Below are positions 3,539 to 24,209 of a stretch of 24,966 nucleotides of DNA, one piece after another. Positions within the stretch are counted from its first letter, which is position 1. Each line of letters begins with the position of its first letter. Origin of the DNA: a virus; the IMG/VR virus record IMGVR_UViG_3300027791_000124, positions 1 to 24,966 of that record; one strand, given 5' to 3'. The notes under the pieces are model-generated. The model was given only the letters and a program-made list of their open reading frames with translations. It was not told where the DNA came from and searched no databases. A program made the position numbers and the translations under genes.

Positions 3539-3567
3539 TTGACAAGCTATCTGAATTTAGCTATAAT
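3539..3567 (+). promoter_or_regulatory. Consensus sigma70 promoter for the fibre operon
   Basis: TTGACA (3539-3544), a 17-bp spacer, then TATAAT (3562-3567): both hexamers are perfect. Transcription should start near 3574, leaving a leader of about 14 nt before the ATG at 3588. GGAG lies 8 nt before that ATG. The spacer holds a short inverted repeat, AGCTA/TAGCT, at 3545-3549 and 3558-3562. It is the only strong promoter seen on the + strand, in a 72-bp gap between the tail-tip gene and the next gene. Confidence 0.85.
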
Positions 3568-3587: not shown

Positions 3588-3926
3588 ATGAGTGCAGCCC
3601 GCTATAACTTAGTTATCGACCAAGGTTCCGACTTTGCTGTCGATTTTACAATATCCGAAGATGGAGCCGTCAAGAACTTGACAGGTTTCTCAGCGCGCGC
3701 TCAGATGAGGTCTACAAAGCTTTCATCAAGTATTGCTGCTACTTTTACCTGTACCATAGCGACTCCTAGTTCTGGAGTAATACGAATGGCATTACCTAAT
3801 GCAACTAGTTCAGCTTTGACTTCAGGCAGATTCTACTACGATTTAGAAATTTTTACAACAGGAGATACTGCGGTAAATCGACTTTTGCAAGGTGACGTTG
3901 ACGTGACTCAAGAGGTAACTCGCTAA
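3588..3926 (+). CDS. Small beta-rich virion protein between tail-tip and fibre genes
   Basis: A 112-aa protein with no signal peptide or membrane segment. Its pattern is an N-terminal DQGSDFAVDFTI strand, then NLTGFSARAQMR, a central strand region, GRFYYDLEIF, and an ending GDVDVTQEVTR. This architecture recalls small Ig-like or baseplate-upper-protein-like proteins encoded next to phage fibre genes, where an adaptor role is plausible. The start is ATG with GGAG 8 nt upstream and a consensus promoter just before. Its stop overlaps the ATG of the fibre gene (TAATG), so the two are probably translationally coupled. The function is inferred from position and fold style only. Confidence 0.75.
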   Translation: MSAARYNLVIDQGSDFAVDFTISEDGAVKNLTGFSARAQMRSTKLSSSIAATFTCTIATPSSGVIRMALPNATSSALTSGRFYYDLEIFTTGDTAVNRLLQGDVDVTQEVTR

Positions 3927-13580: not shown

Positions 13581-14203
13581 TTTACAGCAAACTCTTGTTC
13601 CAGAGCTTCGTCATCTGTTTCTGCACCGTGATTGCGAGTGCGATCAAGCAGCTCTTTCTGGGCATCAGGTGTGGGGCGGGTCATAACGTCGTCCATAGAC
13701 TTCAACTCGCTAATAGCGGTAAGTTCGTCTGCAGTAAGAGCACGTGGCTTACACTTAAGTGCTTGCAGTTGGTACTCTACGTTATAAGGAAGGGGGCCAG
13801 TTTTTACTCGCTTGAAACAAATGTCCCAGCCAGTAGTATGGTCAGTTGGGTCGCCTAAATCTTCTGCAGCGGTAATAATTTGCTCCCACAGCTTCTTCTT
13901 TAGGTTTACTACTTTTACTTCTCCGTTGTCGATACATTGCGTAGCATAGCTCCAACCACATTTAAGGTCAGGGTAATACTCTCGAACCCAGTCTTTTTCC
14001 AGGTTATTAAAACGCTCAGCATCTCGATCAAACGATAGGCATTCCATAGGAATATTTTTGTCGTTCTCACCTTTAATCCAATATACATAGCGAGCAAGAA
14101 TGTCGCCTACGATACGCATTTTATTGTCGCCATCGGTGTACTGGTAAGCTGAGAGGGATGATTTTTGGGCAGAACCCTTTTGTTTGTTAAATGAAATAGC
14201 CAT
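13577..14203 (-). CDS. gp32-like single-stranded DNA-binding protein
   Basis: A 208-aa protein with a basic start (FNKQKGSAQKS), a beta-rich core (RIVGDILARYVYWIKG; KDWVREYYPDLKCGW; LGDPTDHTTGWDICFKRVKTG at roughly 116-136) and an acidic, flexible C-terminus (ETDDEALEQEF). This combination is typical of phage SSBs of the gp32 group, whose acidic tails recruit replication partners. No clear zinc site is seen, unlike T4 gp32. Codon use is richer in GC and favours CGT/CGC for Arg, unlike neighbours that use AGA/AGG, which fits high expression. The start overlaps the previous stop (TAATG). A recombination mediator is less likely. The assignment is by pattern memory and needs a profile search. Confidence 0.7.
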   Translation of the reverse strand: MAISFNKQKGSAQKSSLSAYQYTDGDNKMRIVGDILARYVYWIKGENDKNIPMECLSFDRDAERFNNLEKDWVREYYPDLKCGWSYATQCIDNGEVKVVNLKKKLWEQIITAAEDLGDPTDHTTGWDICFKRVKTGPLPYNVEYQLQALKCKPRALTADELTAISELKSMDDVMTRPTPDAQKELLDRTRNHGAETDDEALEQEFAVK

Positions 14204-14604
14204 TAGTGCATAGTCTCCAGTGTAACTTCTTCGTATATTAAAGTAATTTCATCCTCTAATACAATCAGTAGTCTGTTATCTTTTATAGTTTCTAAATCCA
14301 CAGGACAATGTAGTGGGTCTAGCGTGGTTTTGCCGGTTGCCATATATTCACTATAACTTCTAAGCGAAGCCATAGCATAATAAACACATAGTTCCCGAGG
14401 TGTGTACTTATAAGCATTGAAAAGCAGAAATTCAGGATGTAGTAAAAAACTAGTACCTGTAAAATTCTTTTGGGCATATTTATATATGTAATCGTATTTA
14501 TTGCGTGGAATCTTCTCTTTTATGAGCATTTCCATTATCATATTACATAGCGAAATATTGCCGTCCGCTGAATCAAAAACCTTCTTCCAATCAAATAAGA
14601 TCAT
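14203..14604 (-). CDS. Conserved phage protein of unknown function (T5 D11 position)
   Basis: A 133-aa soluble protein starting MILFDWKKVFDSADGNI. It has an internal region FTGTSFLLHPEFLLFNAYKY and a helix YTPRELCVYYAMASLRSYSEY. I recognise the type as recurring in phage replication blocks but know no function. No nuclease, ATPase or zinc motif is seen. A perfect promoter -10 box ends only one base before the ATG and there is no Shine-Dalgarno, so either the gene is translated from longer transcripts or the start is elsewhere. It shares TAATG with the SSB gene downstream. Confidence 0.75.
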   Translation of the reverse strand: MILFDWKKVFDSADGNISLCNMIMEMLIKEKIPRNKYDYIYKYAQKNFTGTSFLLHPEFLLFNAYKYTPRELCVYYAMASLRSYSEYMATGKTTLDPLHCPVDLETIKDNRLLIVLEDEITLIYEEVTLETMH

Positions 14605-14605
14605 T

Positions 14606-14634
14606 ATTATACTTTAAATTTACCATATTGTCAA
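14606..14634 (-). promoter_or_regulatory. Consensus sigma70 promoter before the D11-SSB-SbcDC group
   Basis: On the - strand TTGACA (14634-14629), a 17-bp spacer, then TATAAT (14611-14606), both perfect. The sequence before the -35 box (ATTCTTGACA) matches the other - strand promoters here. The expected transcription start (about 14599) falls inside the first codons of the 133-aa ORF, so this promoter cannot give an mRNA containing that ATG. Confidence 0.8.
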
Positions 14635-21602: not shown

Positions 21603-21633
21603 AAAAGTTGAGCAGACCCCGAAGAGCCTGCTC
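21603..21633 (-). terminator. UUCG-loop intrinsic terminator after the four-repeat DNA-binding gene
   Basis: In the - strand RNA a 10-bp stem (GAGCAGGCUC / GGGUCUGCUC, with two G-U pairs) is closed by a UUCG tetraloop (21610-21633) and followed by UUUU (21606-21603). A second perfect hairpin, GACTAC-TCAA-GTAGTC (21641-21656), lies between the gene stop and this terminator. The order stop, hairpin, terminator fits 3'-end protection and termination of an abundant mRNA. Confidence 0.8.
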
Positions 21634-21664
21634 AGGTTGTGACTACTTGAGTAGTCGTGAAAGA

Positions 21665-22390
21665 TTAAGCAGAAGCTTTTTCTTTCTTAGACGCGCCATC
21701 ATAGTCAGCGGCTGAAAGGCCACGACGAGTCAGCATAGTCTTGACACCGCGAGCTGTTTTGCCAATCGCTTCAGCAATTGTTTCTACAGTCAGGCTACCG
21801 ATATCAGAGATAGCAGCCAAAGGATCTACTTTAGAAGAACCTTTAGTGGTTTCTTGACGAGGGATAGCATCAATGTCACCTGAACGAAGAAGGCTGAGAG
21901 CCTTGCCGCGTACAGAGTTTACGGAACGGTCTAGCTCAGCTGCGATAGCTTCAACGAAAGCACCATTTTGTACCATAGTTACAAAAACTTCTTCTTCAGC
22001 AGGAGAGTACGTGCGTACAGCTTCTACTTTAGGAGCAGGTTTAACGTGGCTAGTAAGTTCCATAGAGAGGATCTTGCCTTGAATTGACTTAGGAGAGAAA
22101 GCACCATCTTCGAAAAGACCTGCAATTTCAGCGTAAGTGTATTCACCGCTATTGTCTTGGACAAAAGCGTCAAGAGTAGCTTCTTGTGCGTCTGAGAAAG
22201 CTCGAACAGCACTAGCAGAAGCCAGTTCAACGTCATGACCCATCTTTCGCAGTTTGCTTGAGATAGAACGAGTTGAGGTTTCAAGGTCAACAGCAGCTTC
22301 TGCTACAGTTGCTTGAGAAACGGGGCTTTCGCCACCGACAAATTCGGTTAACTGAGCAGTACGCTCGTCAGTCCATTTAGGTAAAGCCAT
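21665..22390 (-). CDS. DNA-binding protein of four helix-turn-helix-like repeats (T5 D5 position)
   Basis: 241 aa built of four related units at about 5-55, 64-117, 128-172 and 196-227. Each begins with an aromatic/acidic helix (KWTDERTAQL, FSDAQEATLD, YSPAEEEVFV) and ends in a recognition-helix-like segment (RSISSKLRKMG, KSIQGKILSME, NSVRGKALSLL, RGVKTMLTRRG). The repeats recall SANT/homeodomain-like or sigma-region-4-like folds. The C-terminal tail is basic (SKKEKASA). In T5 the gene between ligase and helicase is D5, an abundant DNA-binding regulator; this is a good positional match. The ATG has GGAG 7 nt upstream. GC-rich codon choice (CGT for Arg, GCT/GCA for Ala), a strong ribosome site and a UUCG terminator point to high expression. 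Confidence 0.75.
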   Translation of the reverse strand: MALPKWTDERTAQLTEFVGGESPVSQATVAEAAVDLETSTRSISSKLRKMGHDVELASASAVRAFSDAQEATLDAFVQDNSGEYTYAEIAGLFEDGAFSPKSIQGKILSMELTSHVKPAPKVEAVRTYSPAEEEVFVTMVQNGAFVEAIAAELDRSVNSVRGKALSLLRSGDIDAIPRQETTKGSSKVDPLAAISDIGSLTVETIAEAIGKTARGVKTMLTRRGLSAADYDGASKKEKASA

Positions 22391-22392
22391 TT

Positions 22393-23142
22393 TTATTCTC
22401 CAATAAAATTAAAAAGGTTAGTTATGATTTGAATGCCAGAAGCCCTGGCTTTCTTAGTTTTAGCGGACTCTATTCCGCTTTCGTTTACTAAGATGGTTAC
22501 ATCTTTTGTGAGGGTACTTTTGACAACATAACCAAGCTCTTCTAATACTTTGTGAGCCTCGGCTTTATTTGAATAAGAGGTAAGTTTACCACTAATACAA
22601 ACAACTCCTTGAGGTGTATTTGTTGCCTGAGACTTCTCAAACTTAAAACTAAACGGAAGTAAACTTACCTGATATAACTCGCGTTCGAGCCAATCACAAA
22701 GACTTTTAGTAGACTTCTCACCTAAACCTGCCTTGCGGCACAATTCGTAGTCTATTTCTTCTATATCAATGCAGACCTTGGAAAGTTTTTCCGAAGCAGT
22801 CTTACCGATAAGAGGTATGCTAAAAGCGGGGAGTAATACGTTTAGTGGAGCTTTCTTTGATCTTTCTAGCTCATCTACTAACTTCGCGGCAATACGAGAA
22901 GAGCTAATCGCATCGTCTATATCCTGTAAAGACAAAGAGTAAAGCTCCTCAAGTGAGACAATACCGAGTTTTACAAGTGTAGCTGGGCCTAAGCCTTTAA
23001 TCTTCAGCGTTTTGGCGAAGTGTTCGATAAGTTTAATAAGTTTAGAACCACAAGTTGGGTTCCTACAAAACAAAAGATAGTTTACCTCCTCTAACACCGA
23101 GCTGCACGAAGGGCAGTTTGTTGGAGCTTCGATTACGGTCAT
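22393..23142 (-). CDS. ligB: NAD-dependent DNA ligase, C-terminal half (zinc finger, HhH, BRCT)
   Basis: 249 aa equivalent to the C-terminal part of bacterial LigA. A four-Cys zinc finger (CPSC at 10-13, CRNPTC at 26-31) leads to helix-hairpin-helix repeats (LKIKGLGPATLVKLGI; IPLIGKTASEKL) and a BRCT domain (GVVCISGKLTSYSNKAEAHKVLE to the end). It lacks the adenylation domain, so it must act with the product of the upstream gene. T5 also encodes ligase in two subunits. It has its own consensus promoter and a GAGG site 7 nt before the ATG. It ends 2 nt before the four-repeat DNA-binding gene, with which it is surely cotranscribed. The symbol follows T5 usage, not bacterial LigB. Confidence 0.9.
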   Translation of the reverse strand: MTVIEAPTNCPSCSSVLEEVNYLLFCRNPTCGSKLIKLIEHFAKTLKIKGLGPATLVKLGIVSLEELYSLSLQDIDDAISSSRIAAKLVDELERSKKAPLNVLLPAFSIPLIGKTASEKLSKVCIDIEEIDYELCRKAGLGEKSTKSLCDWLERELYQVSLLPFSFKFEKSQATNTPQGVVCISGKLTSYSNKAEAHKVLEELGYVVKSTLTKDVTILVNESGIESAKTKKARASGIQIITNLFNFIGE

Positions 23143-23168
23143 TGCTATTCCTCTGAATTTGAATAAGT

Positions 23169-23197
23169 ATTATACGGCTTTTTAAGGTTTTTGTCAA
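23169..23197 (-). promoter_or_regulatory. Consensus sigma70 promoter for the ligase C-half gene
   Basis: On the - strand TTGACA (23197-23192), a 17-bp spacer, then TATAAT (23174-23169), both perfect. The spacer ends CCTTAAAAAGCCG, nearly identical to the spacer end of the promoter at 24181-24209. The predicted start near 23162 gives a leader of about 20 nt. It occupies the 79-bp gap between the two ligase genes. Confidence 0.88.
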
Positions 23198-23221
23198 GAA
23201 GTATTTTTCACAAGGTACCAA

Positions 23222-24154
23222 TCAATCTAAACGTCTTACAACGCGAGGTATGATTTCCCCTGAACGTATAATCTCTACTTGACAACCTATCTCAAGATTA
23301 AGGTCGCGTATATACTGAATATTGTGCAGCGTGGCTCTGGAAACAGTGGCATCGCCTATAAGGACGGGTTCCAGTATTGCTACTGGACTTACTACCCCAC
23401 TCTTTCCTAGCTGCCACACTACATCAACAAGCGTTGTCTCAACACCCTGTGCTCGGCTTTTAAGAGCGAAAGCACCCCTTGGGTGTTTGCTGGTGTGTCC
23501 TAGTCTATCGTGAGCTTTATTATTATCAAGACGATAAACAGTACCATCTGTAGGGTATTCACTAGAATCGAACCGAGTAACTACATTCAAACCTTCTTCG
23601 CTAAGACTTTCCAGTGTTTGCTGATAAGTCTCATGACTCATAGGAATTTGATCGTATGCTACAAATACAAGTGAACGAGTCTTAAACTCGGTTAAACCTT
23701 CTAAGCTATTCTTCAAGCCAAGAGAACCCGAAGCATAATTGCGTGAGTTAGGTACACTGCTTGGGGCGACAACTTCTCCAGTAATTTGAACAAGACCAAT
23801 AGCTTTAATACTATTAGGTACTAATTCTTTTATCTTGGCAGTAATGTCTCTACCTTGTATACCATCTCCACGAGTTAAAGCTAACTCAAGGTTTCCGTCT
23901 ACATACAGAATAGATATAGCAGCCCCGTCTAGCTTAGGAGAAACCACACAATTATTTATATCAATAGGAGCTTTAGCTATATCAAAACACTTTTGCAATG
24001 AATACATTTGATACGCGTGAGTCACTGCATCAGTAACCTCGTATCCAACAGTATTATAGTTGTGTTTGTGTGCTAAAAGATCGAACTCCTCGTCCGAAAG
24101 GAGAGGAGTACCTTCGTAGTATAATTTACTCGCTCTGTCTAAAAAATCGCGCAT
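23222..24154 (-). CDS. ligA: NAD-dependent DNA ligase, adenylation/OB half
   Basis: 310 aa. A short Ia-like part (LYYEGTPLLSDEEFDLL) binds NMN. The nucleotidyltransferase core has KLDGAA with the AMP-accepting Lys74, RGDGIQGRDIT, TGEVV, GAFALK, and VWQLGKSGVVSPVAILEPV. The OB fold ends in VEIIRSGEIIPRV. The protein stops there, where bacterial LigA would continue into the zinc finger; that remainder is the next gene. It is not a frameshift: there are 79 bp with a promoter and ribosome site between the halves. Compared with E. coli LigA (Lys115), the N-terminal domain is about 40 residues shorter. It seals nicks in phage DNA using NAD. Confidence 0.93.
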   Translation of the reverse strand: MRDFLDRASKLYYEGTPLLSDEEFDLLAHKHNYNTVGYEVTDAVTHAYQMYSLQKCFDIAKAPIDINNCVVSPKLDGAAISILYVDGNLELALTRGDGIQGRDITAKIKELVPNSIKAIGLVQITGEVVAPSSVPNSRNYASGSLGLKNSLEGLTEFKTRSLVFVAYDQIPMSHETYQQTLESLSEEGLNVVTRFDSSEYPTDGTVYRLDNNKAHDRLGHTSKHPRGAFALKSRAQGVETTLVDVVWQLGKSGVVSPVAILEPVLIGDATVSRATLHNIQYIRDLNLEIGCQVEIIRSGEIIPRVVRRLD

Positions 24155-24180: not shown

Positions 24181-24209
24181 ATTATACGGCATTTTAAGGA
24201 AGCTGTCAA
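24181..24209 (-). promoter_or_regulatory. Consensus sigma70 promoter for the ligase N-half gene
   Basis: On the - strand TTGACA (24209-24204), a 17-bp spacer, then TATAAT (24186-24181), both perfect. It starts 3 bp after the stop of the PC4-like gene. The predicted start near 24174 gives a leader of about 20 nt. Confidence 0.88.

Follow-up and report, generated by a model that had tools for sequence, protein, structure and literature searches.

Two-Part Ligases of T5-Like Phages

The A and B ligase subunits of T5-like phages have been described as needed for the sealing of genome nicks (PMC4319617). In the annotation of phage T5 (AY543070), a promoter, ligA, P-K28b, P-K28a, ligB, D5 and D6 follow one another in that order; ligA and ligB are T5.116 and T5.117, and the same record gives D5 as a DNA-binding protein on which replication and late transcription depend. 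A promoter is also annotated before each ligase half in AKFV33, which shares the split and the gene order of T5. The split ligase arrangement, promoters included, is already known from phage T5 and is not new.

The ligase of phage PR1 is a two-chain NAD+ enzyme whose structure was solved on nicked DNA, in two PDB entries released in 2026 (9HU3 and 9I5I) and titled "PR1 phage heterodimeric DNA ligase in complex with 21-mer nicked DNA". The LigB of this structure is identical to the LigB of Providencia phage PSTCR5 over the aligned 233 amino acid residues. The LigA of Escherichia coli (2OWO), in contrast to the phage enzymes, is a single chain of 671 amino acid residues. A literature search found neither an open-access paper on the PR1 ligase structure nor T5 transcriptomics naming ligB or D5.

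A T5-Type Ligase Pair in an Uncultured Marine Phage

The stretch of DNA analyzed here (the whole 24,966 nt, referred to as the window) is, judged from its sequence, a fragment of a T5-like phage genome from an uncultured marine relative of T5. A sequence-only reading of the window had described an NAD-dependent ligase divided into an adenylation/OB gene and a zinc-finger/HhH/BRCT gene, and this description was borne out by the ORF list of the window and by the domain matches: both ORFs are intact, lie on the minus strand and are separated by 79 bp (Table 1). The ligA product was assigned NAD ligase adenylation and OB domains by Pfam and PHROGs (PHROG 3359, 5e-102), and the ligB product matched PHROG 3498 (6e-59) and aligned to positions 388–648 of TIGR00575, which correspond to the C-terminal part of LigA. 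The split point is located between the OB fold and the zinc finger. With the domains spread over two ORFs, and not carried by a single polypeptide as in bacterial LigA, the TIGR00575 bit scores were 186 and 99 against a cut-off of 444 for single-chain LigA. An intron, an intein or a homing-endonuclease insert in the gap was considered and rejected, given that the 79 bp of the window contain only a promoter and a ribosome-binding site.

Table 1. Coordinates of the ligase genes and the associated features in the window.
Feature	Position	Strand	Description
ligA, N-terminal subunit, 310 aa	23222-24154	-	Partial domain Ia, nucleotidyltransferase, OB fold; catalytic Lys74
ligB, C-terminal subunit, 249 aa	22393-23142	-	Cys4 zinc finger C10/C13/C26/C31, HhH, BRCT
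D5-like DNA-binding protein	21665-22390	-	PHROG 323 "transcriptional regulator, D5-like", 3e-42; same place in T5
ligA promoter, TTGACA-17-TATAAT, 12/12 sigma-70	24181-24209	-	Exact in 80/82 marine relatives with enough upstream sequence
Internal ligB-D5 promoter, TTGACA-17-TATAAT, 12/12	23169-23197	-	Exact in 93/93 marine relatives
ligB ribosome-binding site, AGAGGA	23149-23154	-	Read from sequence
Intrinsic terminator-like hairpin after D5	21609-21634	-	Predicted end of ligB-D5 unit

The gene order of the window is that of T5: ligA, ligB and the D5-like gene are followed by ORFs read as a DnaB-like helicase (D6 in T5), a primase and a polymerase. The split, the promoter before ligA and the terminator-like hairpin after D5 are shared as well. 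The two loci differ in several respects. The identity between them is about 41% for LigA and about 38% for LigB, and the ligA-ligB gap of T5 measures 202 bp and holds two promoters (11/12 and 10/12 matches), whereas the shorter gap of the window holds one perfect promoter. In T5, the ligB start lies 30 nt beyond the end of the P-K28a site (TTGCTA-17-TATAAT). Furthermore, ligB and D5 overlap by 8 nt in T5 and are 2 nt apart in the window, and T5 has a homing endonuclease gene between the helicase and primase genes. Taken as a whole, the locus very probably represents the two-subunit NAD+ ligase of T5-like phages, with a second promoter that would mainly serve D5. It opens no new class of system and, as a two-subunit ligase of the T5 family found in a marine relative, is ordinary; what it adds is that the two-part ligase, already known as a hallmark of T5, is now also documented in uncultured marine phages, which form a large group.

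Conservation of the Split and Selection on Both Halves

Two scans of viral contigs gave 95 loci. The 93 marine loci among the sequences compared (the window included, some contigs counted twice) represent 33 distinct gap sequences; their ligA-ligB gaps measure 57–80 bp, and in each of them lies an exact 12/12 promoter, with the end of its -10 box 25–27 nt before the ligB start (93/93 in both respects). Among the segments whose spacer is 17 nt long and whose flanks are complete (14 distinct ones), the 12 hexamer positions were invariant and many spacer positions were variable. The internal ligB-D5 promoter is, as this comparison of sequences shows, strongly conserved.

Both halves were present in 108 of the 112 sequences compared; of the four exceptions, two were contigs that end at ligB or shortly before it, and the other two were distant ligases. 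No fused ligase within the same clade was found among the relatives compared; the ligases of L111 (one chain of 652 aa), Lactococcus phage KSY1 and Xanthomonas phage phiXF1 were set aside, being distant and not pairs of the T5 type. In the 13 cultured relatives checked, the ligA-ligB-D5 order was present, and across the cultured relatives the ligA-ligB gaps measure 178–1144 bp (677 bp in PG07, by longest-match start), with promoters of 10–11/12 matches. A promoter stands before ligB in the marine loci, in T5 and in the cultured relatives, and is thus characteristic of the family. In four Vibrio T5-like phages (L045, L048, L057 and L058), two or three small hypothetical genes are located between ligA and ligB, with gaps of 443–1144 bp. 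The ligA and ligB pair also occurs in Vibrio, Aeromonas, Klebsiella, Providencia, Proteus and Pectobacterium phages and recurs across the Demerecviridae. Protein searches returned 1218 phage records for the N-half, distant single-chain ligases among them, and 925 for the C-half, mostly from Vibrio, Salmonella, Escherichia and Klebsiella phages.

That two ORFs jointly match one LigA model could also be explained by recent damage to a single-chain ligase, through a stop or a frameshift, or by a sequencing error. This explanation has a negligible probability and was ruled out because the split is conserved and both halves are under purifying selection: the search for phages sharing the split point, which the sequence-only reading had called for, found the identical split in at least 33 distinct relatives and in T5, each half has its own start, ribosome-binding site and promoter, and the zinc Cys4 pattern was found in 105/105 C-halves. 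The pairwise dN/dS values were 0.06–0.17 for ligA and 0.12–0.19 for ligB, similar to those of D5 (0.08–0.16). Given these low values, ligA and ligB are both functional genes under purifying selection, and the view that this is not a broken gene holds. The synonymous distances of ligA and ligB differed up to fourfold within the same genome pair (dS 0.17 vs 0.63 for L028/L029), which suggests recombination between the neighboring genes and thus their separate shuffling. Unequal synonymous distances of ligA and ligB were also seen for the window and L060 (a range of about two- to fourfold together with L028/L029).

Active-Site Residues and Similarity to the PR1 Heterodimer

The window pair has its domains in the order of E. 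coli LigA and retains most of the active-site residues of that enzyme. In E. coli LigA numbering, K115, D117, G118, R136, E173, R200, Y225, D285, K314 and R379 were kept in 69/69 distinct T5-type LigA sequences, and Y22 and D36 of domain Ia were also kept in the phage subunits. The claim that both halves keep their key residues held for the lysine of the KLDG motif, which is Lys74 of the N-half, and for the zinc cysteines 10, 13, 26 and 31 of the C-half; it did not hold for the equivalents of E113 and K290, which are Ser and Arg in the LigA of the window. In E. coli LigA these two residues contact the adenine ring (PMC5052709). E113 was replaced by Ser or Thr, and K290 by Arg, in 69/69 distinct T5-type LigA sequences; such a clade-wide change is a family feature and not decay. 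Adenine recognition may accordingly differ from that of E. coli LigA, and the replacement, as read from the alignment, was counted against the explanation preferred here. The columns around R208 and R277 differ too; they fall into loops, whose alignment is uncertain. With Lys74 and most motifs kept, NAD+-dependent nick sealing is predicted for the window pair.

The two proteins of the window were modeled with AlphaFold (mean pLDDT 84 and 81); the best matches of the models were the PR1 ligase chains (Foldseek E values of 1.4e-16 and 3.3e-31), and the zinc-finger/HhH part of the LigB model was superimposed on the PR1 chain with a VIA Z of 17.4 and an rmsd of 2.2 over 158 residues. The domains of the PR1 ligase are divided as in the window pair. 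The identity to the PR1 subunits is only about 37% for LigA and 32–36% for LigB, which was also counted against the preferred explanation, and the promoter context of the PR1 ligase differs from that of the window. By analogy with PR1, for which the heterodimer has been shown, LigA and LigB most likely assemble into one nick-sealing enzyme. LigA would bind NMN/NAD+, transfer the adenylate and contribute the OB fold, LigB would clamp the DNA through its zinc finger, HhH and BRCT domains, and the two would join on nicked DNA to form an enzyme equivalent to bacterial LigA. This two-part ligase is probably needed for sealing the nicks of T5-type genomes.

Promoters and Predicted Transcription Units

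The sequence-only reading had also proposed that each half has its own promoter, with similar spacers, and that the C-half shares its transcript with the DNA-binding protein gene. Both proposals agree with the present results. An exact TTGACA-17-TATAAT promoter precedes each half, and the 17-nt spacers of the two promoters match at 12/17 positions; the extended pattern that they share, TTGACA-5N-CTTnAAA-2N-CCGTATAAT, had two occurrences in the window, where shuffled sequences gave an expectation of 0.00. The -10 box of the internal promoter ends 26 nt before the ligB ATG. The ligB gene adjoins the D5-like gene, and the T-run hairpin after D5 was also found in T5 and, when a simple criterion was applied, in 35/47 distinct relatives. 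Between ligA and ligB, no terminator was predicted on the coding strand of the window, and it is therefore proposed that transcription from the ligA promoter yields a ligA(-ligB-D5) transcript. The adjacency of ligB and D5, combined with the hairpin, leads to a model of two units, in which the internal promoter would give an extra ligB-D5 transcript stopping at the hairpin.

The predicted energy of the ribosome-site duplex was -2.9 kcal/mol for ligA, -6.0 kcal/mol for ligB and -6.4 kcal/mol for D5. Since the ribosome-binding site of ligB is predicted to be stronger than that of ligA, an excess of LigB over LigA, and hence unequal amounts of the two subunits, is plausible. Such an excess could mean that the split is regulatory, with LigB deliberately overproduced for a second, ligase-independent role, for example together with D5 in replication or late transcription. 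The conserved internal promoter, the stronger ribosome-binding site and the fact that, throughout the family, D5 follows directly on ligB all fit this proposal, yet the same facts are expected if the promoter serves D5. Moreover, ligB occurred without ligA in no locus except contigs cut at their end, no split locus with sufficient flanking sequence lacked either half, and the homologous pair of PR1 forms a heterodimeric ligase on nicked DNA. A regulatory split of this kind is considered very unlikely, and it is just as improbable that LigB made in excess from the internal promoter also acts without LigA, for instance as a DNA-binding BRCT/HhH protein that partners D5 where phage DNA is replicating or nicked. 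The ligase-independent role put forward in the sequence-only reading, for which the promoter and the stronger ribosome-binding site of ligB are the sole support, was not upheld. The simplest purpose of the internal promoter would be the supply of D5. Under this preferred explanation, in which the internal promoter likely serves to make more D5, surplus LigB would be a by-product of D5 supply or would serve to saturate LigA.

Two further exact 12/12 promoters were found in the window. One of them (3539-3567, plus strand) lies in a 72-bp gap before a plus-strand ORF at 3588. The other (14606-14634, minus strand) has a -10 box that ends one base before the ATG of an ORF of 133 aa (14203-14604, minus strand), so that transcription from it would start inside the called ORF, as a leaderless transcript from a later start or because the start was mis-called.
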